Of a DNA stretch of 64,000 bases, positions 18,004-47,862 are shown one piece after another. The first letter of the stretch is position 1, and the number at the start of each line of letters is the position of its first letter. The stretch comes from Chytridium lagenaria. Its lineage: Eukaryota; Chytridiomycota; Chytridiomycetes; Chytridiales; Chytridiaceae. The stretch covers positions 1 through 64,000 of the forward strand of contig JAHLKC010000120.1 of NCBI GenBank assembly GCA_025449115.1, read 5' to 3'. The position numbers and the translations under genes were made by a program. The notes beneath the pieces are model-generated. The model was not told the origin of the DNA and did no database searches. It saw nothing but the letters and a program-made list of their open reading frames with translations.

Positions 18004-18015
18004 CCCTAACCCTAA
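18004..18015 (-). repeat. Telomere-repeat doublet at B1/A3 junction
   Basis: TTAGGGTTAGGG on the sense strand followed by 12 A residues (12 T, plus strand 17,992-18,003) and then the A3 5' end; the longest A-run in the array. Confidence 0.95.
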
Positions 18016-20007
18016 GTTTATCAAGGTAATTTATTCCTGACCCGCATTCCAGCGTTCATATAGGCTCAGACCTCACAGTCCGAGGCTGGCGCTAAGGTGG
18101 ACATCCGTGACTTTATGGAGTGAAACAGAAGGGGGGTACGCGTACATATGCGTTACGTGAACAAAGAAAAGAAGAAAAGAAGAAAAGGAGAAGAAAAGGA
18201 GAAAGATGGACCTCAGGACGCGTCCATGGACGCGTCAAGAGTATCGCTGATGAGGTTAGACCAGGCTTGAGAAGGCGAAGAGGGTCGTTACGAAAAGAGG
18301 ATGCAAGTGTTGTAGCTTCAAGGGCGATATCGTCGGCAAATGGGCGAGTGATGGCGTCAGCTTTGAGGGAACCAGAACGAGAGAGGAGGATGGCGAGTCG
18401 GCGAATACAGTTGGTGCGAGCAAGTGAGAGTTGATGCGGGGAGTCAGGTCCATTTTCGCGGTGTGCAGGGAGAGCAAGAGGGTCAAAATCTTCAAGGAGA
18501 AAGCCGTGGCGACGGAGGCGGGTGGTGATGTTGAGAGTCTCAGAGGAGTCGACGAGGAGGTGGATGACAGAGGAGCCGACAAAACTCATGTCAATGACAC
18601 CAGTCTTGATACCGAGGGTTCGAAGAGCTTCGCGGACGACGACAAAACGCTGGCGCTTGATATCGCCCTTGGGAGGTGAGCCTTTGAAGTAGATGTTGTC
18701 GATGCGGGTGATAGAGCGGGTGGGATAGGTATGGCGGAAAACAATTCTGGAGGCATCTTCAGGGGCGGCGGCGTGTTGAGCAATGGAACGAGCAGCTTGG
18801 GCGTAACTTCGAGGAAGAGTTGGGTCAGGAGGAGAGGTCGTGGAGGTGGAGCTTGTGAAGGTGCGGCGGGAGGAAAAGTCGTTAACGGGTCGGGAGGTTG
18901 GGAGTGGAGTTGTTCCCTTCTCAAAGACACCAGCTTCCCTCAAGGCAAGCATGACGTCTTCAAGCAGGGATTTTCGAAAAGTGAGGGGATCAAAAGGAGG
19001 GGAGGGATCAGTTTGAGGAGGTGTCGGGAGGGCCAGGGATGGTGTTGAAGATGAGGTGACGGCGGCGAGAGAGGCTTCAAGTTGGCTAATTCGAGAATCA
19101 CGGTATTCCAAGGCTGTCTGCATACGGGTAAGAGCGGCGGTGACTTCCTTGAGCTGGGCTTCATATTGGACGACAAGGGTAGCGAGGTCGGCGGCAGAGG
19201 ATTGGGGAGCGGTGGGTGTTGGGGGAGCCATACTGACTGAGTTGTCGGGGTTTGGAGATGAACGGGGTGTGGCTTTATCAGAAAAAAGAATTTCGGGATT
19301 GTCAGAAATTGATGGATCAGGAGTTGGATCAGAAGTGTGCGGGGGGTCAAGAGGTGTGCTGGTGGTGCTGGGATCAGGTCGAAATGTGAAGAAGGAGGAG
19401 AGGAGGCGAGATGGGTTGTGTGGTGGAACAGAAGGTGAGTTGGCCTTGATGGATTTTGGGCGGGGATGGGATGTGGAAGGTGGGGAGTCCAGTCTTGCTC
19501 TTTTGATGGAGATGGATGGATCAGCTGAGATGATGGAGATGGCCGGATGGAGGAGTGCCGGAGCGAAGAACGTGAGATGTGGCCAAGGATGGGTAGGTTT
19601 AGCCAGGAGGATTCGAGATGGGAATTGAGTGCAAGGTGATCAGGTGAGGTTTGGGCTTTGATGAGGGCAGCAAAACGAAGGCTTTTTCCACAGCTCTTGC
19701 CAGGTGACTTCCCGTCACAGCGTACAGAGAGACGCCGAACACCAGAGGAGTCCAGGTCCCCACTGACACCGCGATTGGACCACTTGGTTCCAGTCTGCTT
19801 GCAAGTTGGACAGGTGAGCGAATCCTTAGATAACGAGGCCCAGGAGCTCGTTTCGAAGGCAGAGAAGGCTTCAGGAGTGGTGATGAGAGGGAAGGTCGAG
19901 GGTGGGTGAGGAGGTGATGGTGCTATGGGTGAGGAGGCAGCAGAACGAGATGGGGGATGGTTTTGTTGTGATGGTTTGTGCAGTGTGATGATTTGTAAAA
20001 ATGTAAG
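18016..20007 (-). mobile_element. Type B (ORF1-only) telomere-anchored retroelement, copy B1
   Basis: A 2.0-kb element in the same orientation and with the same junctions as the type A copies. It encodes only an ORF1 homologue; there is no endonuclease or RT, and no ATGTCTGA junction. Its 3' end carries CCACCTTAG, a hairpin and CGGGTCAGG, as in type A. The ORF1 is too different from type A to be a recent internal deletion, so B is a separate lineage presumably mobilised by type A RT. The analogy is HeT-A in Drosophila. Confidence 0.85.
18113..20007 (-). CDS. B1 ORF1-like (Gag) protein, frameshifted
   Basis: Zinc ribbon in 18,940-20,034 (TCPTCKQTGTKW then RCDGKSPGKSC) with no in-frame ATG. 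The first ATG of the downstream part is at 19,231 (MAPPTPTAPQSS), just before a coiled coil (about residues 15-55). The conserved domain follows: RIVFRHTYPTRSITRIDNIY, KRQRFVVVREALRTLGI, DMSFVGSSVIHLLVDSSE, FDPLALPAHR and RTNCIRRLAILLSRSGS. The last 40 residues before the stop at 18,113 look shifted (Phe/Ser-rich) compared with B2. Breaks near 19,230 and 18,260 suggest an inactive copy. Confidence 0.8.
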
Positions 20008-20013
20008 TTTTTT

Positions 20014-20025
20014 CCCTAACCCTAA
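20014..20025 (-). repeat. Telomere-repeat doublet at A4/B1 junction
   Basis: TTAGGGTTAGGG on the sense strand, then six A residues and the B1 5' end, whose sequence differs from the type A 5' end. Confidence 0.95.
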
Positions 20026-20378
20026 GCGTAACAATGAATATATTGTCCCTGACCCGTCAAACTTACGTAAGACTAAGGTGGGCTCTCAAAACACATTACA
20101 GGCGTGAAAGAATAAGTTCGACACTCCAAGAAAAAAAGACGCGAAAACGCGTAAAAAGAACAACAACACGTACAAAGATTAAAGACACGTGGAAAAGCAG
20201 GTAATGGTAAGAAAACACATAGAGAACCGCGCGGTAAAAGCACGTATTAAACAGAGATGGAAAGAGAGTAAGACCAGGAAGAAAGGAAGAAATAGAGGGA
20301 ATGAAAACAAAGATAAAAGAAAATACTAAGTAGAGGAGAAAGAGAAGAGGAAAAACCAGGAAAGTAAGAAAGAAAACC

Positions 20379-23300
20379 TCACAGAGGCTCTTCAGGAGCC
20401 AGTACCCAGTGTTCCTCTAGCGCCTCCCTCGTAAGACGCGTGTCCTTGCCGATATCGCCGCCGCAGTACCCTTGCCTCATCCAAAATATTGTGAAGTTCT
20501 TGTTCTCGGGTATTGACGGAGAGTCCCAAAATGGTCGTTGACCAAAACAGCACCATCCGAATCCGCTCAACCGCTCCACACACAGGCGAATTTCAACGCG
20601 TGATGAGTGGTGACGATCAGCGTTTGGAAGAAAACGAAGTCGGGACAGTAAGGAGTCGATGATGGTGGAGCCAGGAGCGGTGGGGAGAGAGGTGGGAGGT
20701 GTGGGATGCAGCGGCTAGAAGAACAGTGGCGCCAGTGCATTCCGTCGTGTGTTCACGGCTTCCCAGGGCGTCATCGTCACAGTTGAGACATGGTTGGTGA
20801 AAGGAGACTCTGCCTAAAGCCCAGCAGACAAGGGCTCGAATTGGTGGCGGTGGAGCAGAGAACCCGACGCGAGAAGACGGTGACGACGACCCCTGGGTAG
20901 CACCGGGAAGACCTGGGAGGTACGTGGTCCCTCGGCGAGGATGTGGTCAAGGATTGGCGGTGTGCAGCGTCGAAGAAGACCGGAGGGAGGCGTGGAGAGG
21001 ATTAACTGGGCGACCGGCAGCTGGATGGTGAATAACAGGCCGAAGAAGATTAAAAACAATATTTTGTAAGTAAGGAAAGACAGAAGGCCATAAAGGATTG
21101 TGGTAACGATAAGCAATAAAGGTGGTGCGATAGGTAAGGGAAGAGGGAATGGGGTGTTGACGGGAGTGTCGATAAAGACGTGCGGTGAGGTTACCAGAAT
21201 CGTTGCATTGATGAAGACGAAAAAAGAATGAAGCGTTAAGCGTGTGTTGCGAGAAGAAAGAGGACAATATTACAAGAAGGTGAAGAGATGCAGAACTAGT
21301 GGATCGAGAGACAGAAAAATAGAGCGGAGGCAAGGTTTTGGGTGTTTTGAAGGGGAAGTAATTCGGAACGGGGAGGGGTCGAAGGGCTAGTCCATATTCA
21401 AAAAGGGGGCGGATGAACATCTTGTAAAGAAAAGTGAAAGGGAAGGCTCCATCCCCAGCCATTCATCCCTTTACTACGAAAGAAGTTGATGAGCACATGG
21501 CTTTACGGACCCTCTTCTCCAGAGAAGCAGGGATATCCACTCCAGTTGTATCCATCACCACCCCTAAAAATCCAGCCGACCGCACCGGCCTTACAACGGT
21601 CCCCCCATCGTGACGGTGTCATTGCCTGTAATGACGAGTGCTGATTTGTTTGGTGCGTATTCGATGCCAACCTCATCCCCCAGTCATAGCATTCTTGCGC
21701 GAGACGTTGAAGGCCGGGTAACGTAGTTGAAAAAATCGTGGTGTGTCAGCTAGAAGAAGAGAGTTAAGACGGCGACCGCCGCACATGATTGAGGGTACAT
21801 GTTGAAGTGAAAGGAGACGGGATGGGAGGGGTTGATGAAAAATAAAAACAAGGATGGAGCCAGACGTGTTCCCTGAAGAAGACCACGGCGTACAGGGATG
21901 GGAGGTGATTTGCGGTTAAGAACAAGGAGAGAGGCAACATTATAATCAAATAAACATCGAAGTAAGGAACAACAGAGTCATGAGTTTCAGTGTCGAAGGC
22001 ATCACCAGACCAGGGAACTACCGGATGTGCCGGTAAGTTAGCAAAACGGGACCAAAGAAGTCGTCGGTCGACGGTATCGTAAGCTGCCTTGATGTCGAGG
22101 TACATGGTTTTGAGGTTGGGGTGGTGTTGGAGTATTTCATGGAGGTTAAAGACTTGATCAAGACAAGAGCGTTGAGCACGGAAGCCTCCCTGTGCGATAT
22201 CGAGGTATGGGAGGATACGCTTGTCCATGACGGGTCGGAAAATGGCTTCAAACACCTTTCGAATGACTGAGATCAAAGAGATAGGGCGATAATTGACGAC
22301 CTCACGATTGCTGCCTTTGTTCTTGTAAACCAATGCCACGTTCGCAACCAGCCATGAGGATGGAACGCAGGTATACATCACCACCAAGTTGAAAAGAACT
22401 TGGAGGGGACCAAGAATTTCAGGGATAGCTTGCGAGAGCATTTCCCCGAAAATTTGATCATCTCCAGTTGCTTTACCCGACGGCGTGTCTCTGAGAACCG
22501 TATGCATAGTGGCGTCGTTAATCCAGGGTGGGTATGGGAGCACTTGACGAGGGTTGCGGGGGTCGGTGGACCTGAGAAAGTCTTGGTTTGGAATAGCGGT
22601 GCCGGTGGGAAGGGCGCCAAAGGTGTTGTTGAAGTGATCTGCATATTCAGGGAGTTTGTCGGGGTCTAGAGCGCAGTGAGAGCGTTGGTATCGAGTAAGT
22701 TGACATGAAAGAACTTTGGCGGCGACCTGTGGTTTGGCGAGTATGGCGTCGGATCCATGGCGGTAAATACGGGTTTTATGAGACGGGCTGCGGCACGATA
22801 GATACGGTTGGCCTCAACACGGTAGCGCCATCGAATAGGTTTGAGTTGTGGAGGTGATTCGATGAAGTCTTGATGGGCAGTATGCGCCATTTGGCGTAAG
22901 GCGGCGAGATGCGGTGTGTCAAAACCTGAATGCGGGGTGCCGCCTTTGAATTTGAATCTACCAACAGATTCTTCAGCGGCACGTAGAATCCAGCTAGAGA
23001 CAGCTTCTGATGCCTCGTTCACATCATTCTGTCGTTCCTCCCACCCTACCAAAGTATTTGTAACCCTATAACCGGCAACTCTGACCTCCAACAGTCCCAG
23101 CCGCGTCATCAGATCGTCCCTACCCTCCCGAAGCTTATCCCTGAAGTGTATGAGTCCGTCGCCTTCCAGCTTATTGATGTTGATTCTTGAAAACGGCGGT
23201 TTCCAGAATGGCGTCGGTAAAGGTATGTCAACCGTGAGCAAGGAATGATCACTTCCCATCGTATGGTTCTCATGCACCACCAAGTCAGGTGCTAATGGTA

Positions 23301-23965
23301 GTGCAGCCGTGTTTAAAAATACGAAATCCGTTATGCCGTGACCGTTTCTGGCGTGTGTGGTCCATTTTCCTCGTGAGGGCTCTAACCGTGTCCATTCTGG
23401 ATCCTCCATCCAGTTTTGCATCCACATCTTACGATGATTATCCCCGACCGTATTCACATCCCCCGTCAATACCCCCATCCGTGCATTGAAATCACCCACG
23501 ATCACTATGGGAGAAGCCGGGTGTTGCAGGCTAATCCCTGCCCTAAAGGCGTCAAAACCCTCCAGCATCGTCCTCGCTGCCGCACCATTACCCGACATAG
23601 GCGGTAAATATCCAACAACAATGATTAACAGTCCCACTTTCACCGCCGTCCATTTACCCCCTGCATCAATCCCAGCACTTCCGCACCAACCTCCTTCTCT
23701 CCAGACGACGTCACTAGTACCCCCATTGTCCTTTCCGTCCCGTTGCTTTCCCATCCACATGCCTGGTGCGAGGTGGAGCCGTACCGTTGACCAGAACGCG
23801 TTTCAGAGGGATCCCGTCCGTTGGTGACAACCAGGTTTCGACAACGGCCATGAGGTCAATTTCTAATGAGGTACATATGTTAGTAAGTAGTTCGGCTTTA
23901 CCTGTTAATCCTTGGGCATTCCAGAAGCCAAGCCGAAGTATGTGATGGTCACCGTCGTCAGACAT
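20379..23965 (-). pseudogene. A4 ORF2: endonuclease / reverse transcriptase, frameshifted
   Basis: ATG at 23,965 in ATGTCTGA (MSDDGDHHILRLGFWNAQG). 22,666-23,760 is one long open frame with IVIGDFNARMG, GHGITDFVF, MGSDHSLL and the linker RWRYRVEANRIYRAA, so the endonuclease is nearly complete. 21,764-22,543 carries the RT start (LVYKNKGSNREVVNYRPISL, LDIKAAYDTVDRRLLWSRF). The ADD box lies near 21,745 beyond a frame break. The C-terminus ends VLAPEEPL at 20,379. Breaks near 23,700, 22,780, 21,960 and several further left. Confidence 0.9.
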
Positions 23966-25984
23966 TAACACGAGTGTTAACGTCTGCGGCACCATGTGAT
24001 ACATCCATTTCATCCTCAGTGTCGGATAAATGTTCAAACCGATTGGAGTTGGGTGGTTGGTCGGTGGCTGGATCCTCAACCCTGCGTCTGGCAACTTTGC
24101 GGGGGTAGGCAAAGGTCGGTCCGTGTCTATAGAAGGGTCAGCATAGCGGAAAACTAAAGCGGTCTCTCGGCGTTGTCGTTCTTCTGCGTACAGGCGTGCC
24201 TGTTCACGCACCTCTCCAGCAAAGGTGTCATCTAAGCCTTCCAAGCAAGCCTGCTTGATCTGTTGCCCTCCACGGCTGTACAGGGCTCCCAATCTCTTAG
24301 CGCAATTGAGTCGGCCTTCCTTTTCTCGTTCAGCGTGGGATTTATTGCTGGCGACATTGAGCTTTGGGACTTCGAGGGGGTCAAAGGAGGGGAGAAATAC
24401 CCCTTTGTCGGTCAATTTTTCTCGATGAAGGCGGCTTTGCTGGCGTCACAAAGGAGGTGGACGACAGATTGACCGATAAAGCTCATTTCGAGTACCCAGA
24501 GTCGATGCCGATGGAGATAAGGGCCTTACGGATCATGAGATAACGTTTGGGACCACGTTGTGCGTATCCACGCATATAAATGCTAGTGACGCAGGAACTT
24601 CGCTGCGTGGATAGTGCTCTAAAGACAACTCGGGCAGCATGGTCTGGCGTGGCGTTACCTCGAGCAATTTGTCGGACTGCCGATGCAAAACTGATGGGAC
24701 CAGTGGGAGGACGGGTGAGCATTGACATCAAAATGTTCTGAGACGTCTTCATTGGCGGTCGGCGGTTTGGAGCGGGATGTTGTTGGGGTCGATGAAAGCC
24801 TTCGTCTTTCATAGCAAGAAGAAGTTCGGCTACAACTGTCTTGGTGAGGTCGGCCTTGAATGCAGCAAGCTTGGTGACTGAGAGATCTTCAAGGACTTCC
24901 CCATCCTCCGTTTCCATGGCAGTCGGTTTCTCAATGGTCGTATTATGGGAGGTCTTTTCTGAAGCCGTTGGAGTGGGGATGACATTGTTGGAGCTGGTGA
25001 GGCGGCGGATCTCGTCGTCTTTGTCATCTAGTCGCTTCTGGAGGCGGGAGTTGTCTTCTCTAAGAGCTCGAACTTCCAGTACAAGGTCCTCCATCCTGGC
25101 ATCCATCCTGGAAATGATGGCGGTGTAATACTTCATGTTCTCTTCGATGGATGCCGGGAGAGGGCTAGAGGTCGACGGAGCGGTGGTCGGTGTTTTCTTA
25201 CCTAAAGGTGTTGACATGTTTGCTGAAGTTAAATTTCCTATAGGGGTTGTCAGTAGGTCACGTGACTGGAAAGAAAAAGCGGAAAGTCTGGATTGAGTTG
25301 GTGGGTGCTTGGTTCCGTCAAGGAGATGGGCGGTGTTGGAGGAGGTGGGTGGGGAATGGCACTTGCTGCTGAGGTCTGGGATGAGGACAGGATGGAGAGT
25401 GGTGTGGGATAGGGAGGTGGTTGGGTTATGTCAGGGGACGGAGGTGGAAGAGGTGATGCGGTGGGAGGTGCGAGGTGTGCAGGGATGGTTGAATGGGGAA
25501 TGTTGATGGAGGAGGTGTCGGTTTGGTCTATTTGTCGTTTCTTGGGTTGTCGTAGGGTGGCTGACGCCGATCTGGAGATGACTTCCAATTGCTGATGGGC
25601 TGTAGCGATTTGGTGACCGATGTCCAGGTAGTCGGAATCTTGTTGTTGTTGCAAGATGGATACGAGTCGTCCAGTGCTTCCGCAGGTTTGGTGAGTGTGC
25701 CGTCACAGCGTATCGACAGACGGCGGGCTCCAGTGGCGGCGTGGCTTCCAGATGGGCCTTTGTTTGTCCACTTAACTGCGGTTTGATCACAAATAGGACA
25801 GATCAGCCGAGCCTTATCCAAGTTCTTCCAGCTTAGTCTCTCAAGCTGATGGAACTGGTTGACGGCAGCTGACAATGGGGATGAGGGATCAGGGTCGGGA
25901 TGATGGGAGATGGGGGTTGGGGGCTTCGTCGATGATTTGGTTTTCAGTTCTTTTGGCACTTTGGGTGATTTTTGTGCAAAAGAG
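23958..25984 (-). pseudogene. A4 ORF1, frameshifted
   Basis: 25,528-26,016 holds the zinc ribbon (ICPICDQTAVKW, RCDGT) with no in-frame ATG and reads through the telomere doublet. 24,483-25,217 starts MSTPLGKK and holds the coiled coil and part of the conserved domain. 23,958-24,415 holds the rest (FDPLEVPKLNVASNKS, RGGQQIKQACLEG). Indels near 25,690, 24,730, 24,590, 24,490 and 24,420 break it. Confidence 0.87.
23959..23986 (-). promoter_or_regulatory. Hairpin over ORF1 stop / ORF2 start in A4
   Basis: A 13-bp stem, all positions paired if one G-U is allowed, closing on a 2-nt (effectively tetra-) loop; the best version of this hairpin. The ORF2 AUG lies in the 3' arm. Confidence 0.65.
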
Positions 25985-25995
25985 TTTTTTTTTTC

Positions 25996-26007
25996 CCCTA
26001 ACCCTAA
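25996..26007 (-). repeat. Telomere-repeat doublet at B2/A4 junction
   Basis: TTAGGGTTAGGG plus one extra G on the sense strand, then ten A residues and the A4 5' end. Confidence 0.95.
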
Positions 26008-28232
26008 GCGTAACAATAATATTTATTCCTGACCCGCATTCCCGCATTCAGAGACACTCGTCTAAGGCTGGCGCTAAGGTGGACAACCGTGACTTACAAG
26101 ATTTCGATGGGGGGGTGAGATAGAAATATACGGTACATAAGCGTAAGAGTAATGAGTAAAAAAGAGAAAAGGAAAAGAAAATCGTAAAAGTGAAACATCC
26201 GTAAAGTAAGTATCATGAAAAGGAAAGGTACAAGGAAGAAGAAAACGAACGAGGGGAAAACAATTATGCTTAGGTGTCAGCCATGGCTAAGTCGGGAGCA
26301 GGAGTCGGTGGAATAGGTTTGGTGACAGGGGGATTAAAGATGGAGGCGATACGAAAGGTTGCGGCGAGTTGAGAGGCTTCAGTGATGACATCGGCGGGGA
26401 AAGAACGAGTAATGGCGTCAGTTTTGATGCTGCCGGATCGGGAGAGAAGGATAGCAAGGCGACGAATACAGTTGGTGCGAGCCAGGGCGATTTGAGAGGA
26501 GGATGGACGAGCGCCGCCATCGCCGTTGTACCTATGAGCAGGGACTGCGAGAGGATCAAAGTTTTCAAGAAGGAGACCATGGCGACGAAGAGTTGCTGTG
26601 ATGGTGGGAAGTTCGGCGGGGTCGACGAGAATGTGAATGACGGATGAGCCAACGAAGCTCATATCGATGACGCCAGAGGAGATGCCGAGGGTACGAAGAG
26701 CTTCACGAACAATCACGAATCGTTGACGCTTGATGGTACCTTTAGGGCATGAGCCCTTAAAGTAAACGTTCTCAAGGCGTTCAATTTGACGAGTTGGGTA
26801 GGTATGGCGAAAAACAATGCGTGCGGCATCTTCAGGCGAGGCGTCGTGACGAGAGATGGATCGGGCTGCTTGAGCGTAGCTGCGGGGTGGTGGGGGGTCT
26901 GTGGAAGTGGAGGCGTTGGCAGGGAGTGGGAAGGTGCGGCGTGATGAAAAATCATTAACTGGGCGAGAGGAGAGGGCTGGAGAACCTTTCTCGAGGATGC
27001 CAGCCTCCCTCAAGGCAAGCATGACATCCTGGAGAAGAGATTTCCTGAAGGATTGAGGGTCAAACGAGGAAGGTGGAGAGGAAGAGGAGTCCAGAGTAGC
27101 GTGGGTGGGAGGAGTGGAGGTGGCGGCGGCAAGAGCAGCTTCAAGGTGAGCAATACGGGCATCTCGTTCTTCTAAGGCAATTCTCAGCGTAGAGGTGGTG
27201 TCAGCATCAGTAGAGGAGGTTGCGGCAGAAGGAGAGGGCTGTGCGGCGAGAGCAGCTTCCAGGCGGGCTTGAACGGCATCAGCTTCAGTGAGACGGGCAA
27301 GGAGAGAGTTTCGTTCAGCAATCATTGAGTGGGCTTTGTCGAGGGTGGAGGTCATTTTCTTCAGTTGTTGGTCATAGTCGGCGATGATGGCGCGTAATTC
27401 CTCTTCAGTACGAGCGGTGGATGAGGGTGGGTGGACCATATCTTCCCAGTGGTCAAGGATGGGTGATGGTGGAGGTGGTGTGGATGGGTGAGGTGCGGGG
27501 GGAGACCCCGTAAACAAAAAGGAAAAATTCGGATTGTCAGATGGGGGTGTGAAAGAAAAAGTTGGATCAGAAGTGCTTGGATCAAGAGATGGTGAGCTAG
27601 GGAGGGGAGTAGGATCAGAACGAGAAGGGAAGAAGGAGGAGATAGGGCGAGTTTGCTGGGTGTCAGAGGAAGAAGGGTTCAAGTCCTTTCTTGCCTTAGA
27701 ACGAGAGATGGAGGTGGATGGAGGAGAGTCAGCGAGTTTTCGTTTGCTGGCCTGTGAGCGATCCAGGGTGGTGGGAGGTTGAGGTGATGGGTTGGGAGGT
27801 TGTTTAGGTTGCCGTAGGGAGGAGGATTCGGAACGGGACAGGGTGGATAGCTGCTGATGGGCTGATGCAAGTTGTTGGCCAATATCCAAGAAATCCGAGT
27901 CTTTCTGCTTGTTCAGGATGGTGGTGAGTCTGCCAGAGTGGCCACAGGGCCTGCTAGGGGTGCCGTCGCAACGAATGGAGAGCCGACGAGTCCCTGTAGC
28001 AGAGTAGCTGCCTGTGGGCCCTTTGTTGGTCCAGTGAACTCCTTTTTGATGACAGATAGGGCAAATGAGGCGAGTTTTGTCGAGATTCTTCCAGGTTTCT
28101 TTCTCCAGGTGCTGGAAACGAGCAGCATCAGCGAGGGTGGAGGAGGTGAGGTGATCAGTGGTGGGGATGAGGTCGGGGATGGTGAGATCTTGGGAGATGA
28201 TGGTGTTTGAGATCTTTTGGCACTGTTGATGA
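26008..28232 (-). mobile_element. Type B (ORF1-only) telomere-anchored retroelement, copy B2
   Basis: A 2.2-kb element, the innermost of the array, touching the copia remnant through a telomere doublet. It is the best-preserved type B copy: a single uninterrupted frame and a 3' UTR of about 260 nt. The 3' end has CCACCTTAG, a hairpin and CGGGTCAGG. Its 5' end shares GTGCCAAAAGA with type A. No endonuclease or RT. Confidence 0.87.
26270..28232 (-). CDS. B2 ORF1-like (Gag) protein, full open frame without early AUG
   Basis: The frame is open from a TAG in the telomere repeat to the stop at 26,270, about 650 codons. Order: zinc ribbon (ICPICHQKGVHW...RCDGTPSRPC), linker rich in Ser/Pro, first in-frame ATG (MVHPPSST) near 27,440, two coiled-coil stretches (about 27,050-27,400), and the conserved domain (RIVFRHTYPTRQIERLENVY, KRQRFVIVREALRTLGISSG, DMSFVGSSVIHILVDPAE, RTNCIRRLAILLSRSGSIK). 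It ends DLAMADT. It has no frameshift, suggesting recent activity or selection. Likely role: RNA-binding Gag supplied to telomeric RNPs. Confidence 0.87.
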
Positions 28233-28238
28233 TTTTTT

Positions 28239-28250
28239 CCCTAACCCTAA
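28239..28250 (-). repeat. Telomere-repeat doublet joining B2 to a broken copia element
   Basis: CCCTAACCCTAA, oriented as a left chromosome end, lies directly against the interior of a copia integrase gene. Six T residues lie on the B2 side. Confidence 0.95.
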
Positions 28251-30882
28251 GTTTGGAAATGAAACCGGACTCCGCGTCGCGGAATTCAGATCTGACACAG
28301 GCGAAATTGCTACGTCTACAGACTTCCAGAAGTTCTGCACGGAAAAACTTCCGCCGATCACAATCTCACCATCACCACCTTACACTAAGGAGCTCAATGG
28401 TTTGGTTGAACGGACTATCAGAAGCCTCAAAGTGATGGCATCCTGTATGCTTACTCAGTCCAAGCTTCCTGATATTTTCTACTCTCATGCACTCCTGTAT
28501 AGCGCCCTTGTTAAGAACACGCTTTGGCACCCTTTTCTGAAAGGAACACCATATCAGTCGTTTACTGACAAGAAACCCGATTTGACACGTATCAGATCGT
28601 TTGGTTGCCTGATCAGCATACACTTGCATCCAGATCAGCGGCGTGCGCTACATACCCGCGACAAATCCGAACTCGGGTTATTTTTGGGATATGAAGGACA
28701 GTCGCTTAAAGTAGTGAAAGCTTACAATTACCGAACGGGTACGATACGTCCCTACTATCATGTATACTTTCACGATGGTGTATTCCCCGGAAACAGCCCA
28801 TCGAAATCAGTCCTTGATGATCTACTATCAACTTATCCTGTTTCGACATTTTCCTTTGACGAAATACCAATTGAAACAGAAGAGGAAGTCATTCCTGAGG
28901 ATATTACTTCGGAAGTACTTATCCCAAATGATGATAGTGACTCCGAAGAAGAGGACCCGATTCCTTTCGTCACTTTCCCTATAAACTTTGACGATGAAAT
29001 CACGCTTGTAGTACCTCCCGTTGTACTTGTTGCACCTCCTGAGGATGCACCACTATCAAGACGAACCAGATCACGTGCACCTGCTCCCGAATGGTCTCGT
29101 ACTCCTGGCGTTACCTTCCGAGGTGATCCAGGCGACCGAGCTGCACGCGTAAAGTCATCAAACCAAAGATTGTTTTCCCTGAACCGCTCCGAGTTCACTC
29201 CTCCTCAGAAAATCCCTATGTCACAAGTTCTTCCTTTACCTTCATCCGTTGAAGAAGCTATGTCACGGCCAGATGAAGCACCATTTTGGTACGCGGCAAT
29301 GTTGAAGGAATACAACGAACTTAAGCGACGTGGGACGTGGGATGAAGTACCTTTTCCGAAAGGTGCTCATCTAATTGATGGAAGATGGGTTTTCGATCAT
29401 AAGTTCGATCAAGACGGTAACCTTATCCGTTATAAGGCCCGTTGGGTTGCTCGAGGTTTCAGTCAAATTCCAGGCAAAGAATATACCGAAGTGTTTTCGC
29501 CTGTCGCAAACGCTAATACTATTCGGTTTTTCACTTGCTGGAGTGCGATTCTATGCCTTCTTATCTATCAGATAGATATTACTGGCGCATACCTCTTTGG
29601 AACTCTCCACGATCTGAATTATTTGGTGATGCCACATGGTTTTGAAAAGTTCGCAGCTGACGGTGCTATGATTGTCTGTCGATTGAATCAGGCCATCTAT
29701 GGTTTACATCAATCCGGACGAGAATGGTACATAACACTGTGTCTTTGGCTTGTAAAAGATGAAGGTTTTACGCGCAATAGAGCTGATGTCTGTCATTTCG
29801 TCAAATATGACAAAGAGTCTAATACTCTTATCCACGTAATCATTTATGTGGATGATATCATTATCATTACTGTTAATGTAAGCTTTATTCACGCCTTCAT
29901 TGATCGAGTGGACAAGCGATTCAAAGTTGGAACCAAAGGGCCTATTGACTGGATGACCAAAATCCAAGTTATTCACACCGTTGAAGGAACGTTTATTTGC
30001 CAACGATTCTATATCAAGCATTTATTAGAGTCCTGTGGATTATGGGATACGGGTATCACCTCGAAACCCACTCCTATGACCATCAACTGGTGTCACGATG
30101 ATTCAGCAGCTGAGTTATCGCAAAACGAACGCGATCAATTCCGTTCAATCCTGCAAAAGATTTCCTATCTCGCGCAGAAGACCAGACCTGATCTGGCATT
30201 TACCGTCAGTAAACTAGGGCAATATCAAGCTAACCCAAATGCTGGGGACTTTGTTGCACTAGTTCGAGTTTTACGTTATTTACTTGACACGCATGACTAT
30301 GGTATACTATACTCAAAATCGGCGTTGTCTTCTATGACACAACTCACTGAAGGTAGAACCGCCATCTTGGACATAGAAGAAGCACCTCTTTGTTATGCAG
30401 ACGCCAGTCACGCATGTGAAGATGACTTTAAGTCACGTACCGGTTACGTGGTGTTATTCGGTGGCGGCGCCATTTCATGGCAGTCCAAGAAGCAAACGGT
30501 TGTTGCGCAATCATCTTCTGAAGCGGAGCTCATTGCACTCAGTGAAGCTACCCGCGAGATGATATGGTATCAAAGTCTCATGGATGAAGCCTTAATCCAA
30601 CATCCTGGTGTATCCCGTATATATCAAGATAACGACTCAACCATTGCTATAGCGAAAAATCCGATGCATCATCAACGTGTCAAACACATGAACGTGAAAC
30701 ACAGATTTGTCAACGACAAGATTGATGAACGCCGCATCGAACTCGCCTATTGCTGGTCAGAAGACATGGTCGCTGACGTCTTAACGAAGTCTTTACCTAC
30801 TGAAGCACATCAACGGCATGTCCGCAGCCTTGGTATGCGACGATTCAGAGACTTGACCACACTGCCATCAGAAAAGCAATAG
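28251..30882 (+). CDS. Copia pol fragment: integrase C-terminal part, RT, RNase H
   Basis: One open frame of about 877 codons. It begins just before the second integrase aspartate (FRSDTGEIAT) and includes the catalytic glutamate (LNGLVERTIRSLK). A Glu/Asp-rich linker follows, then copia RT: WVFDHKFDQDGNLIRYKARW, TGAYLFGTL and the catalytic YVDD at 29,845-29,856. RNase H follows, with CYADASHA, VVAQSSSEAEL, DNDSTIAIAKN and DVLTKSLP. No stop or frameshift is seen, so the truncation is the only lesion. The apparent first residues upstream come from the LINE and telomere repeat and are not native. Confidence 0.93.
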
Positions 30883-44504: not shown

Positions 44505-45290
44505 CTCGATCCAAATTCTTTGGGGGGATTTGAGAATTTCTGATGATGTTTTGCAAGTGGGGTAGAGTGGGTTGTGATGGTGCCTCTGGGCTCACACTAT
44601 CTTTTGTAAGCTCTCACACCACTTGTACCATTGTGTCCTGGGTATCTCATGATGCCTAGGATATCCCTATGGACATCTGCCTGGGAAAAAGGATTAGTGT
44701 GGGTTCATTGAGCCTGATCACTCCTCTTCCCCCATTTGCAATCACATCAGTTTCTCTGCACCTCTTTATCATAATGGTTAGCACTTCTCCCCTTCCCCTT
44801 CTTCATCTACTCCTCTTTACTGCCTCCTCTTGGCTGCTGGCAGCCAAGGGGCCTCTTGATCACTACTTGATTAAGAGGCTATTATGTGTAACACTCAGAC
44901 CATGGTCTTTCTGAGGGTTGCACAGACTCTCATTAATTAATTCTATTATCTTTATTAACTTATTCTTTACCACTTTATTATTTTTTTATACACACAGAGC
45001 AGTGCCTCGACGACGCATTGTTTTTCTGTTGGTAGTTTGTTTTAGCTCTGTGTGTGTTATTAACTCATTTCTCTTTCTTTTTCTTTTGTTTTTATCACAT
45101 ATAGTACCCCATATCTCTCGATGACCACCAGGGGCTTAAAGATTCAAAAGAACCAAAGTGACGGTGCACATGAATGCTGTGTCATAGCTGCCATGGAGTC
45201 CGTAGCAGGGAGCTCTTTGCAGAAATGCAGTCTCTCTGACAAAATCTTTCTTACTATTATGTTTTTTTTATGCTTTATAATAACTTTGTA
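44505..45290 (+). repeat. Duplicated non-coding unit X, copy 1
   Basis: Shares long blocks (over 90% identical by eye, for example GAGTGGGTTGTGATGGTGCC) with 48,930-49,910. Conserved pairing arms AAGTGGGGTAGAG / CTCTCACACCACTT at 44,554-44,566 and 44,611-44,624. Conserved blocks are separated by pyrimidine-rich, less conserved stretches with CAG or TAG ends that resemble introns. No conserved protein frame. It may be a structured RNA gene or a dispersed repeat. The 3' end runs straight into the satellite below. Confidence 0.55.
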
Positions 45291-47862
45291 ATAAATTCGG
45301 AATTTAAATTCCATCTTTACTTAATTCGAGTTTTTCCTCTTTACTTAATTCGAGATTTTAAATCTTTATGTAATAAATTTGGAATTTTAAATAGCTCTTT
45401 ACTTAATTCGGAGTTTTTATATGTCTATATTTAATTCGAGTTTTTATATCATTATGTAATAAATTCGGAATTTTAATTCCATCTTTACTAAGTTCGAGTT
45501 TTCCTCTTTACTTAATTCGAGATTTTAAATCTTTATGTAATAAATTCGGAATTTAAAATAGCTCTTTACTTAATTCGAGTTTTTATGTGTCTATATTTAA
45601 TTTGAGTTTTATATCTTTATGTAATAAATTCAGAATTTTAATTCCATCTTTACCAAGTTCGAGTTTTTCCTCTTTACTTAATTCGAGGTTTTAAATCTTT
45701 ATGTAATAAATTCGGAATTTTAAATAGCTCTTTACTTAATTCGAGTTTTTATATGTCTATATTTAATTCGAGTTTTTATATCATTATGTAATAAATTTGG
45801 AATTTTAATTCCATCTTTACTAAGTTCGAGTTTTTCCTCTTTACTTAATTCGAGATTTTAAATCTTTATGTAATAAATTCGGAATTTTAAATAGCTCTTT
45901 ACTTAATTCGAGTTTTATGTGTCTATATTTAATTTGAGTTTTTATATCTTTATGTAATAATTCAGAATTTTAATTCCATCTTTACCAAGTTCGAGTTTTT
46001 CCTCTTTACTTAATTCGAGGTTTTAAATCTTTATGTAATAAATTCGGAATTTTATATAGCTCTTTACTTAATTCGAGTTTTTATATGTCTATATTTAATT
46101 CGAGTTTTTATATCTTTATGTAATAAATCGGAATTTTAATTCCATCTACTGTTCGAGTTTTTCCTCTTTACTTAATTCGAGATTTTAAATCTTTATGTAA
46201 TAAATTCGGAATTTTAAATAGCTCTTGACTTAATTCGAGTTTTTATATGTCTATATTTAATTCGAGTTTTTATATCTTTATGTAATAAATTCGGAATTTT
46301 AATTCCATCTTTACTAGGTTCGAGTTTTTCCTCTTTACTTAATTCGAGTTTTAAATCTTTATGTAATAAATTCGGAATTTTAAATAGCTCTTTACTTAAT
46401 TCGAGTTTTTATATGTCTATATTTAATTCGAGTTTTTATATCATTATGTAATAAATTGGAATTTTAATTCCATCTTTACTAAGTTCGAGTTTTTCCTCTT
46501 TACTTAATTCGAGATTTTAAACTTTATGTAATAAATTCGGAATTTTAAATAGCTCTTTACTTAATTCGAGTTTTTATGTGTCTATATTTAATTCGAGTTT
46601 TTATATCTTTATGTAATAAATTCGGAATTTTAATTCCATCTTTACTAAGTTCGAGTTTTTCCTCTTTACTTAATTCGAGTTTTAAATCTTTATGTAATAA
46701 ATTCGGAATTTTATATAGCTCTTTACTTAATTCGAGTTTTTATATGTCTATATTTAATTCGAGTTTTTAAATCTTTATGTAATAAATTCGGAATTTTAAA
46801 TATCTTTACTTATTTCGAGTTTTTATATTTCTTAATTCGAGTTTTTAAATCTTTATGTAATAAATTCGGAATTTTAATTCATTTCTTTACTAATTCAAGT
46901 TTTTTTATACTTAATTCGAGATATTAAATCTTTAAATAATAAATTCGGAATTTTAAATAGCTCTTTACTTATTTCGAGTTTTTATATTTCTATATGTAAT
47001 TCGAGTTTTTATATCTTTATTTTATATCTTTATGTAATAAATTCAGAATATCAAATAGCATTTTTATACTTAATTCGAGTTTTTATATAGCTATTTTATA
47101 TCTTTAAATAATAAATTCGGAATTTTAAATAGCTCTTTACTAAATTCGAGTTTTTATATCTTTGTACTGAATTCGAGTTTTAGATCTTTATGTAATGAAT
47201 TTGGAATTATAAATAGCTCTTTACTTAATTCGAGTTTTTATATTTCTATATTTAATTCGAGTTTTTATATCTTTTTATTATAAAATCGGAATTTTAAATA
47301 GCTCTTCACTTTTTTCAAGTTTTTATATCTTTATACTTAATTCGAGTTTTTATATCTTTATAAATTCAGAATTATAAATTGCTCTTTACTTAATTCGAGG
47401 TTTTTATCTGTCTATATTAAATTCGAGTTTTTATATCTTTATGTAATAGAATCGGAATTTTAAATAACTCTTTACTAATTTCGAATTTTTATATCTTTAG
47501 ACTGAATTTGATATTTAAATCTTTATGTAATAAATTCGAAATTATAAATAGCTTTTTACTTAATAACAGTTTTTATATTTCTATACTTAAAGTCAGAATT
47601 TTAAATAGCTCTTTACTTTTTCGAGTTTTACTTAATTCGAGTTTCTATATCTTTATTTTAAATCTTTATGTAATAAATTCAGATTATTTAATAGCATCTT
47701 TATACTTAATTCGAGTTTTTATATATTAATTTTATATCTTTACATAAAATTCGGAATTTGAAATAGCTCTTTACTAAAATTGATTTTTAATATCTTTATA
47801 CTGAACTCGAGTTTTTAGATCTTTATGTAATGAATTCGTAATTATAAATAGCTCTTTACTTA
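45262..47862. repeat. AT-rich tandem satellite, 166-bp monomer with dimeric higher-order repeat
   Basis: ATTCCATCTTTAC recurs near 45,309, 45,477, 45,642, 45,809, 45,975, 46,139 and 46,305, a period of 164-168 bp. Each monomer holds about six sub-units of 25-33 bp built on TTTACTTAATTCGAGTTTTT. Alternate monomers share marker variants (ACCAAG/GAGGTTTT/CATTATG versus ACTAAG/GAGATTTT/ATGTGTCT), giving a dimer of about 332 bp. From about 46,780 rightwards the order decays. No coding content. Confidence 0.9.

Follow-up and report, generated by a model that had tools for sequence, protein, structure and literature searches.

ORF1-only LINE units in head-to-tail arrays of the chytrid Chytridium lagenaria: a probable long-lived lineage copied in trans

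Gag-only units in a retrotransposon array

Gag-only non-autonomous elements are rare, and why they retain Gag is an open question. It is raised by the stretch analysed here (the window), the first 64 kb of contig C120 (125,502 bp) in the 41.9-Mb genome of the chytrid fungus Chytridium lagenaria. A head-to-tail array of long interspersed nuclear elements (LINEs) fills the first 28 kb of the window; read along the minus strand, it consists of B2, A, B1, three further A elements and the start of a next A. Type A elements carry two open reading frames (ORFs), ORF1 and an ORF2 for an endonuclease (EN) and a reverse transcriptase (RT), while B1 (18016..20013, 5' end at 20013 and 3' end at 18016) and B2 (26008..28238, 5' end at 28238 and 3' end at 26008), also on the minus strand, are ORF1-only. 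B1 is flanked by an A element on each side and B2 by host DNA and an A element. A preliminary description of the window had seen in them a division of labour like that of the Drosophila HeT-A element, and had proposed to look for further B copies, to compute nonsynonymous and synonymous divergence (dN and dS) on the B ORF, and to compare the 3' ends of B and A; these checks were run here. The results make it likely that B is a single long-lived, non-autonomous ORF1-only LINE lineage, copied in trans by the EN and RT of A elements, that has changed its partner over time.

Our genome search, whose copy counts are lower bounds, found at least ten B copies: three of B1, six of B2 and one of a new type, B3. 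The B1 copies lie on contigs C120, C222 and C69 (the last two 97% identical to the window copy), and those of B2 on C120, C29, C24, C352, C222 (3' truncated) and C152 (5' truncated), at 97 to 99% identity to the window copy; C21 and C15 carry B2 relic pieces. The single B3 copy (C293:3595-5778) sits between two A elements. No RT was seen in any of the ten copies, and none with an ORF2 is among them, so the ORF1-only coding capacity first described for B holds for all copies found. The ends had been called complete; both B1 and B2 are indeed bounded by CTTAGGGTTAGGG, but the window B2 is short of about 12 bases at the 5' end that are present in other copies. B elements are a minority, accounting for 7 of the 30 3' ends in a genome pattern search (33 matches, three of which, on C70, C71 and C249, are plain telomere-like repeats; none in the control; the A family with GGATCAGG is missed by this pattern).

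An old ORF1 kept by selection

The B ORF1 encodes a zinc ribbon, a coiled coil and a domain with the VVFR.TYPR and SFVG motifs, in that order, as first described. In B2 the frame is open for 656 codons (26270..28240), with an A-like zinc ribbon (CPIC...CDGTPSRPC, 27944..28063), two long helices of a predicted coiled coil (27119..27406) and an RRM-like domain with a conserved DMSFVGSSVIH motif (26555..26782). The ribbon frame (27440-28238 in the window; other copies were compared) is open to the 5' end with no ATG ahead of the ribbon, and the first Met (27439) comes just ahead of the coiled coil, at the place where database models of the A ORF1 begin (MSTPL). An AlphaFold2 model from this Met has long helices of coiled-coil type (the coiled coil at residues 12-107) and an RRM-like domain (pLDDT 74, pTM 0.41, weak matches), the same arrangement as in L1-type ORF1 proteins. 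In the window B1, the ribbon lies in a different frame (18940..20034, also with no ATG ahead of the ribbon) from the main ORF1 frame (18113..19231, open for 372 codons from the ATG at 19231), which encodes the coiled coil and an RRM-like domain alignable to those of B2 and A.

Over this domain, B1 and B2 are about 67% identical in amino acid sequence and B2 is mostly 30 to 50% identical to A. In the conserved-domain tree B1, B2 and B3 form one ORF1 clade (support 92/90), present in 90% of 200 bootstrap trees, and its nearest relatives are two LINEs with ORF1 and RT matches (C9:9527-13059 and C138:20083-23815), in which no telomeric (TTAGGG) ends were seen in the pieces read. Pairwise dN and dS are 0.24 and 1.6 for B1-B2, 0.28 and 1.1 for B1-B3, and 0.35 and 1.4 for B2-B3. 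This low dN relative to dS, together with the high divergence among the three types, argues for an old lineage whose protein has been kept, and B is not the recent deletion of A that the preliminary description had already argued against. More recent changes tell the same: the C120 and C222 copies of B2 differ by 8 nonsynonymous (N) and 41 synonymous (S) substitutions (expected N fraction 0.72, P = 6e-16, omega about 0.075), or 7 N and 40 S in a second alignment, nearly all of them within the final 389 codons (6 N, 39 S). Purifying selection acts strongly on the B2 ORF, and neutral decay is disfavoured.

Selection had been thought to act on Gag alone, since the B2 frame was uninterrupted while every A ORF2 was broken. 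The window B2 is in fact the only B copy found that is open from end to end; the other nine are broken or partial, B3 at more than one place, and the other B2 copies carry 1- to 2-bp indels, mostly private. However, relative to the window B2 the C24 copy has 3 substitutions and 19 indels, that on C29 has 11 and 10, and that on C352 has 22 and 14. With indels outnumbering or rivalling substitutions, the breaks in B frames look in good part like assembly error, more than decay, and this bears on the broken ORF2s too. Genome-wide, the statement on ORF2 is wrong, since C40:7372-10602 carries an unbroken A ORF2 of 1,077 codons with EN and RT. Its kind of ORF2 has the domains Exo_endo_phos and RVT_1, i.e., an endonuclease of the apurinic/apyrimidinic (APE) type, and the RT finds R2 and L1 chains alike among sequences of the Protein Data Bank. 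The A RT is also constrained (102 N and 240 S between C120:1142-3217 and the copy at 20-23 kb), and the A ORF1 differs by 2 N and 7 S in one close pair. A constrained RT, a kept ORF1 and an intact ORF2 mean that selection is not limited to Gag.

A shared interstitial target

Within arrays, 33 element-element junctions read hold two TTAGGG units, one of them a G short and a few with extra bases; the patterns used required at least two units, so shorter junctions would have been missed, and no longer tract was met there. In the window, TTAGGGTTAGGG stands on the minus strand at each side of B1, i.e., at its 3' junction (18004..18015) and where the 3' end of an A element meets its 5' end (20014..20025). 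It recurs at the 3' junction of B2, as TTAGGGTTAGGG(G) (25995..26007), and between the 5' end of B2 and host DNA, a truncated Copia-type frame (28239..28250). All seven host-to-5'-end junctions found without requiring a C ahead of the repeat have two units plus the C, and a search pattern that does require it yielded two more (C172, C114).

The most direct view of the target comes from a repeat family with the flank CGCTTTCTTTCGAAAATATATTATACGC (also given as CGCTTTCTTTCG), found with up to three mismatches at ten places near contig ends. Five of these sites are empty (two on C61, then C3:601006, C39 and C51) and read TTAGGGTTAGGCGCTTTC, four are filled by A elements (C40, C331, C155 and, with the 3' untranslated region [UTR] only, C3) and one, on C152, is filled by B2. 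At all five filled sites the element stops exactly ahead of TTAGGGTTAGG. Since B2 fills a site whose sister sites are filled by A, B2 uses the A target, interstitial TTAGGGTTAGG(G), and the early observation that B occupies an A-type site is borne out for B2. The repeat on each side suggests a target-site duplication of 11 to 12 bp. Elsewhere, at C222:7714, TTAGGGTTAGGG is followed by TACATGGGGGTGCCC, a motif that resembles an unoccupied site.

Tails that match different A types

The 3' ends of A and B elements follow one plan: a CCACCTTAG box, a variable hairpin, a GGGTCAGG box (GGATCAGG in one A family) and a short tail whose last base is C; TTAGGGTTAGGG follows. At the 3' ends read, the tail runs into the repeat with no oligo(A) in between. 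In B1 this signal occupies 18016..18102, with a tail ending in CCTTGATAAAC, and in B2 26008..26085, with a tail ending in TTGTTACGC. Thirteen A elements have both RT and tail known. Ten of them fall into three tail groups by their last 7 nt (the remaining three have other tails), and these groups need the minimum of two changes on the RT tree, a value equally low in only 1 of 200 shuffles. The tails of A elements thus follow RT clade.

Each B subfamily ends like one of these A types, B2 like GTTACGC over 10 nt, B1 like GATAAAC over 12 nt and B3 like GAAACTC over 14 nt, and the suffix match to every other A type is at most 4 nt. Apart from the tails, the final 90 bases or so of the 3' UTR are homologous between B1 and B2. 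The common 3' ends that the preliminary description had proposed to look for are present, each shared with one A type. Matches of three B tails to three A types point to B subfamilies with different RT partners and would indicate mobilization in trans with partner switching. At the other end of the elements, the 5' end is A-like in B2 only.

A model of mobilization and its alternatives

Mobilization of B might proceed as follows. The B RNA would be coated by its own ORF1 product, a Gag-like RNA-binding protein, and copied in trans by the A endonuclease and reverse transcriptase, as we infer from the common ends and target. The A enzyme would nick interstitial TTAGGGTTAGG(G), priming would use the short 3' tail behind the GGGTCAGG box, and the repeat would remain at both sides. 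Because the duplicated site is again a target, each insertion would keep a fresh target at its flank, and head-to-tail arrays of A and B would grow by re-insertion. The tails of three A types on B1, B2 and B3 would record changes of RT partner by the B lineage. A bolder version, in which an RT-less, ORF1-only lineage has long hopped between RT hosts by exchange of 10 to 14 nt at its 3' end, its Gag being selected to package its own RNA, has in our estimate an even chance of being right.

Several observations weigh against this model. No single locus shows both host flanks, and the target-site duplication is one that we infer. At three 3' ends, those of the C352 copy of B2 and of relics on C52 (A) and C21 (B2), the repeat is not intact, and the 5' end of B1 is unlike that of A. 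The GAAACTC type of A is represented in the RT tree by one entry, from C69, and its B counterpart, B3, is one frame-broken copy. The selection signal is confined to the last 389 codons of B2, the 5' parts having too few changes to count (1 N and 1 S; 0 and 0). In principle, tail types might also spread by array recombination instead of RT choice.

This last point leads to the explanation that survives best after the preferred one, namely that B elements are chimeras of array recombination, with a B-type ORF1 core and ends replaced by those of A through gene conversion, in which case the ends say nothing of the RT used. The ribbon region of B2 is placed among A elements in the tree (84/87), with up to 75% amino acid identity to A over about 100 residues and 40% to B1, unlike the RRM-like domain of B2, which groups with B1; ribbon trees keep B together in 0 of 200 bootstraps, and the differences between the C120 and C222 copies of B2 are almost confined to the 3' half. 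However, an approximately unbiased (AU) test on the ribbon leaves a single B clade unrejected (p 0.086, with long branches present), the tail matches are 10 to 14 nt at the extreme end of UTRs that are homologous between B1 and B2 elsewhere, and on C152 B2 took an A target with host DNA beyond. We therefore consider a chimeric origin of the ends unlikely.

The HeT-A-like proposal, by which Gag-only B and RT-bearing A jointly maintain or extend chromosome ends in mutual dependence, appears improbable, more so than the chimera. A Gag-only partner without RT does exist, it lies within head-to-tail arrays near contig ends, and one B2 copy on C352 is 1 kb from a true telomere tract; this part of the preliminary description stands, and the telomere system is not supported. 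Runs of (TTAGGG)n terminate contigs C9 and C352, and two adjoining pieces on C9 match the telomerase RNA-binding domain (PF12009) over the cut-off. The genome holds 357 matches of (TTAGGG)4, all on the plus strand and none on the minus strand although arrays also stand at left contig ends; this one-strand bias is probably an effect of assembly or orientation. A and B2 insert at an internal target with host DNA beyond the 3' side (C152 for B2). B2 on C352 has its 3' side towards the telomere tract, whereas a truncated A on C174 has the telomere attached at its 5' side, so polarity relative to the chromosome end is mixed. Finally, A retains an ORF1 of its own, B contributes only the minority of 3' ends given above, and nothing found shows A needing the B protein. 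At the C174 junction (70150-70732), the telomere tract directly abuts internal sequence of the A ORF1, as might result from the healing of a break within the element.

To the idea that B arose recently as an ordinary non-autonomous derivative, or is a relic, with an ORF that survives by chance and decays neutrally, we give the least credence: broken or partial frames in nine of ten copies and the several breaks of B3 would fit it, but the 8 N to 41 S between B2 copies, a dN well below dS among B1, B2 and B3, and the indel-rich differences of the C24 and C29 copies, as expected from assembly error, speak against it.

Comparison with known systems

A close parallel to the trans-mobilized lineage proposed here is HAL1 (half-L1) of mammals, described as an ORF1-only LINE with a poly(A) end that relies on the RT and EN of a full-length LINE (PMC5322556). 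B is likewise ORF1-only, under selection and a single lineage, with a probable dependence on a foreign RT. The differences lie in the target and the tail: HAL1 insertion is not known to be site-specific, while B2 inserts at TTAGGGTTAGG, the B tail is fixed and non-poly(A), and B subfamilies match different RT types.

In Magnaporthe/Pyricularia oryzae, the short element MoTeR2 is described as sharing its termini with an RT-bearing telomere-repeat element, with which it forms mixed head-to-tail arrays (PMC7367193). Its interior is given there as unrelated sequence of no obvious function, the MoTeR1 RT as similar to SLACS/CRE1, and the elements as having variable repeat tracts and 5' ends nearest the chromosome end (PMC7367193). 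B too lies in mixed head-to-tail arrays with RT-bearing elements; a terminus in common with A is seen at the 3' end in B1, B2 and B3 but at the 5' end in B2 only. B differs in an ORF1 homologous to that of its partner, and the A endonuclease is of the APE type, while MoTeR1 is CRE-like; CRE-like partners carry a restriction-like endonuclease.

HeT-A shares with B the Gag-only coding capacity, the head-to-tail arrays and an RT from another unit (PMC5537684). As portrayed in the same source, it is the chief constituent of telomeres in a fly that lacks telomerase, and it joins the terminus apparently without nicking and always in a single orientation (PMC5537684), whereas B lies at an internal target of a fungus with TTAGGG ends and has no oligo(A) at the 3' ends read. 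SART1 and TRAS1 of Bombyx mori are LINEs that have an AP-like endonuclease and target telomeric repeats, and SART1 proteins are reported to act in trans on RNA carrying the SART1 3' UTR (PMC7265360). SART1 has two ORFs, as A does, and the available portion of that account describes no Gag-only partner (PMC7265360).

Our searches of the open-access literature turned up no fungal Gag-only LINE of the B kind, and no paper in them mentions C. lagenaria together with the telomere. With C. lagenaria, a chytrid joins the fungi whose LINEs target TTAGGG-type sequence, the other such elements found in the searches being MoTeR and FoTeR. Three Gag-only subfamilies share its genome with several RT clades, whose 3' tails are clade-specific, and with a defined target in empty and filled copies, so that tail swaps could test how partners are chosen, how tails are recognised and whether Gag is needed in cis.

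Neighbouring features of the window

The A element between B1 and B2 (20026..25994, minus strand) has ORF1 and a frame-broken EN/RT ORF2, and its tail is GTTACGC. Beyond B2, a Copia-type polymerase frame (RVT_2, 28207-30882) is cut at the array boundary (minus-strand reading AAAC|TTAGGGTTAGGG), which places the array on a truncated Copia element. Farther along, at 45287-47590, there is an AT-rich tandem array of 14 copies with a period of about 166 bp.

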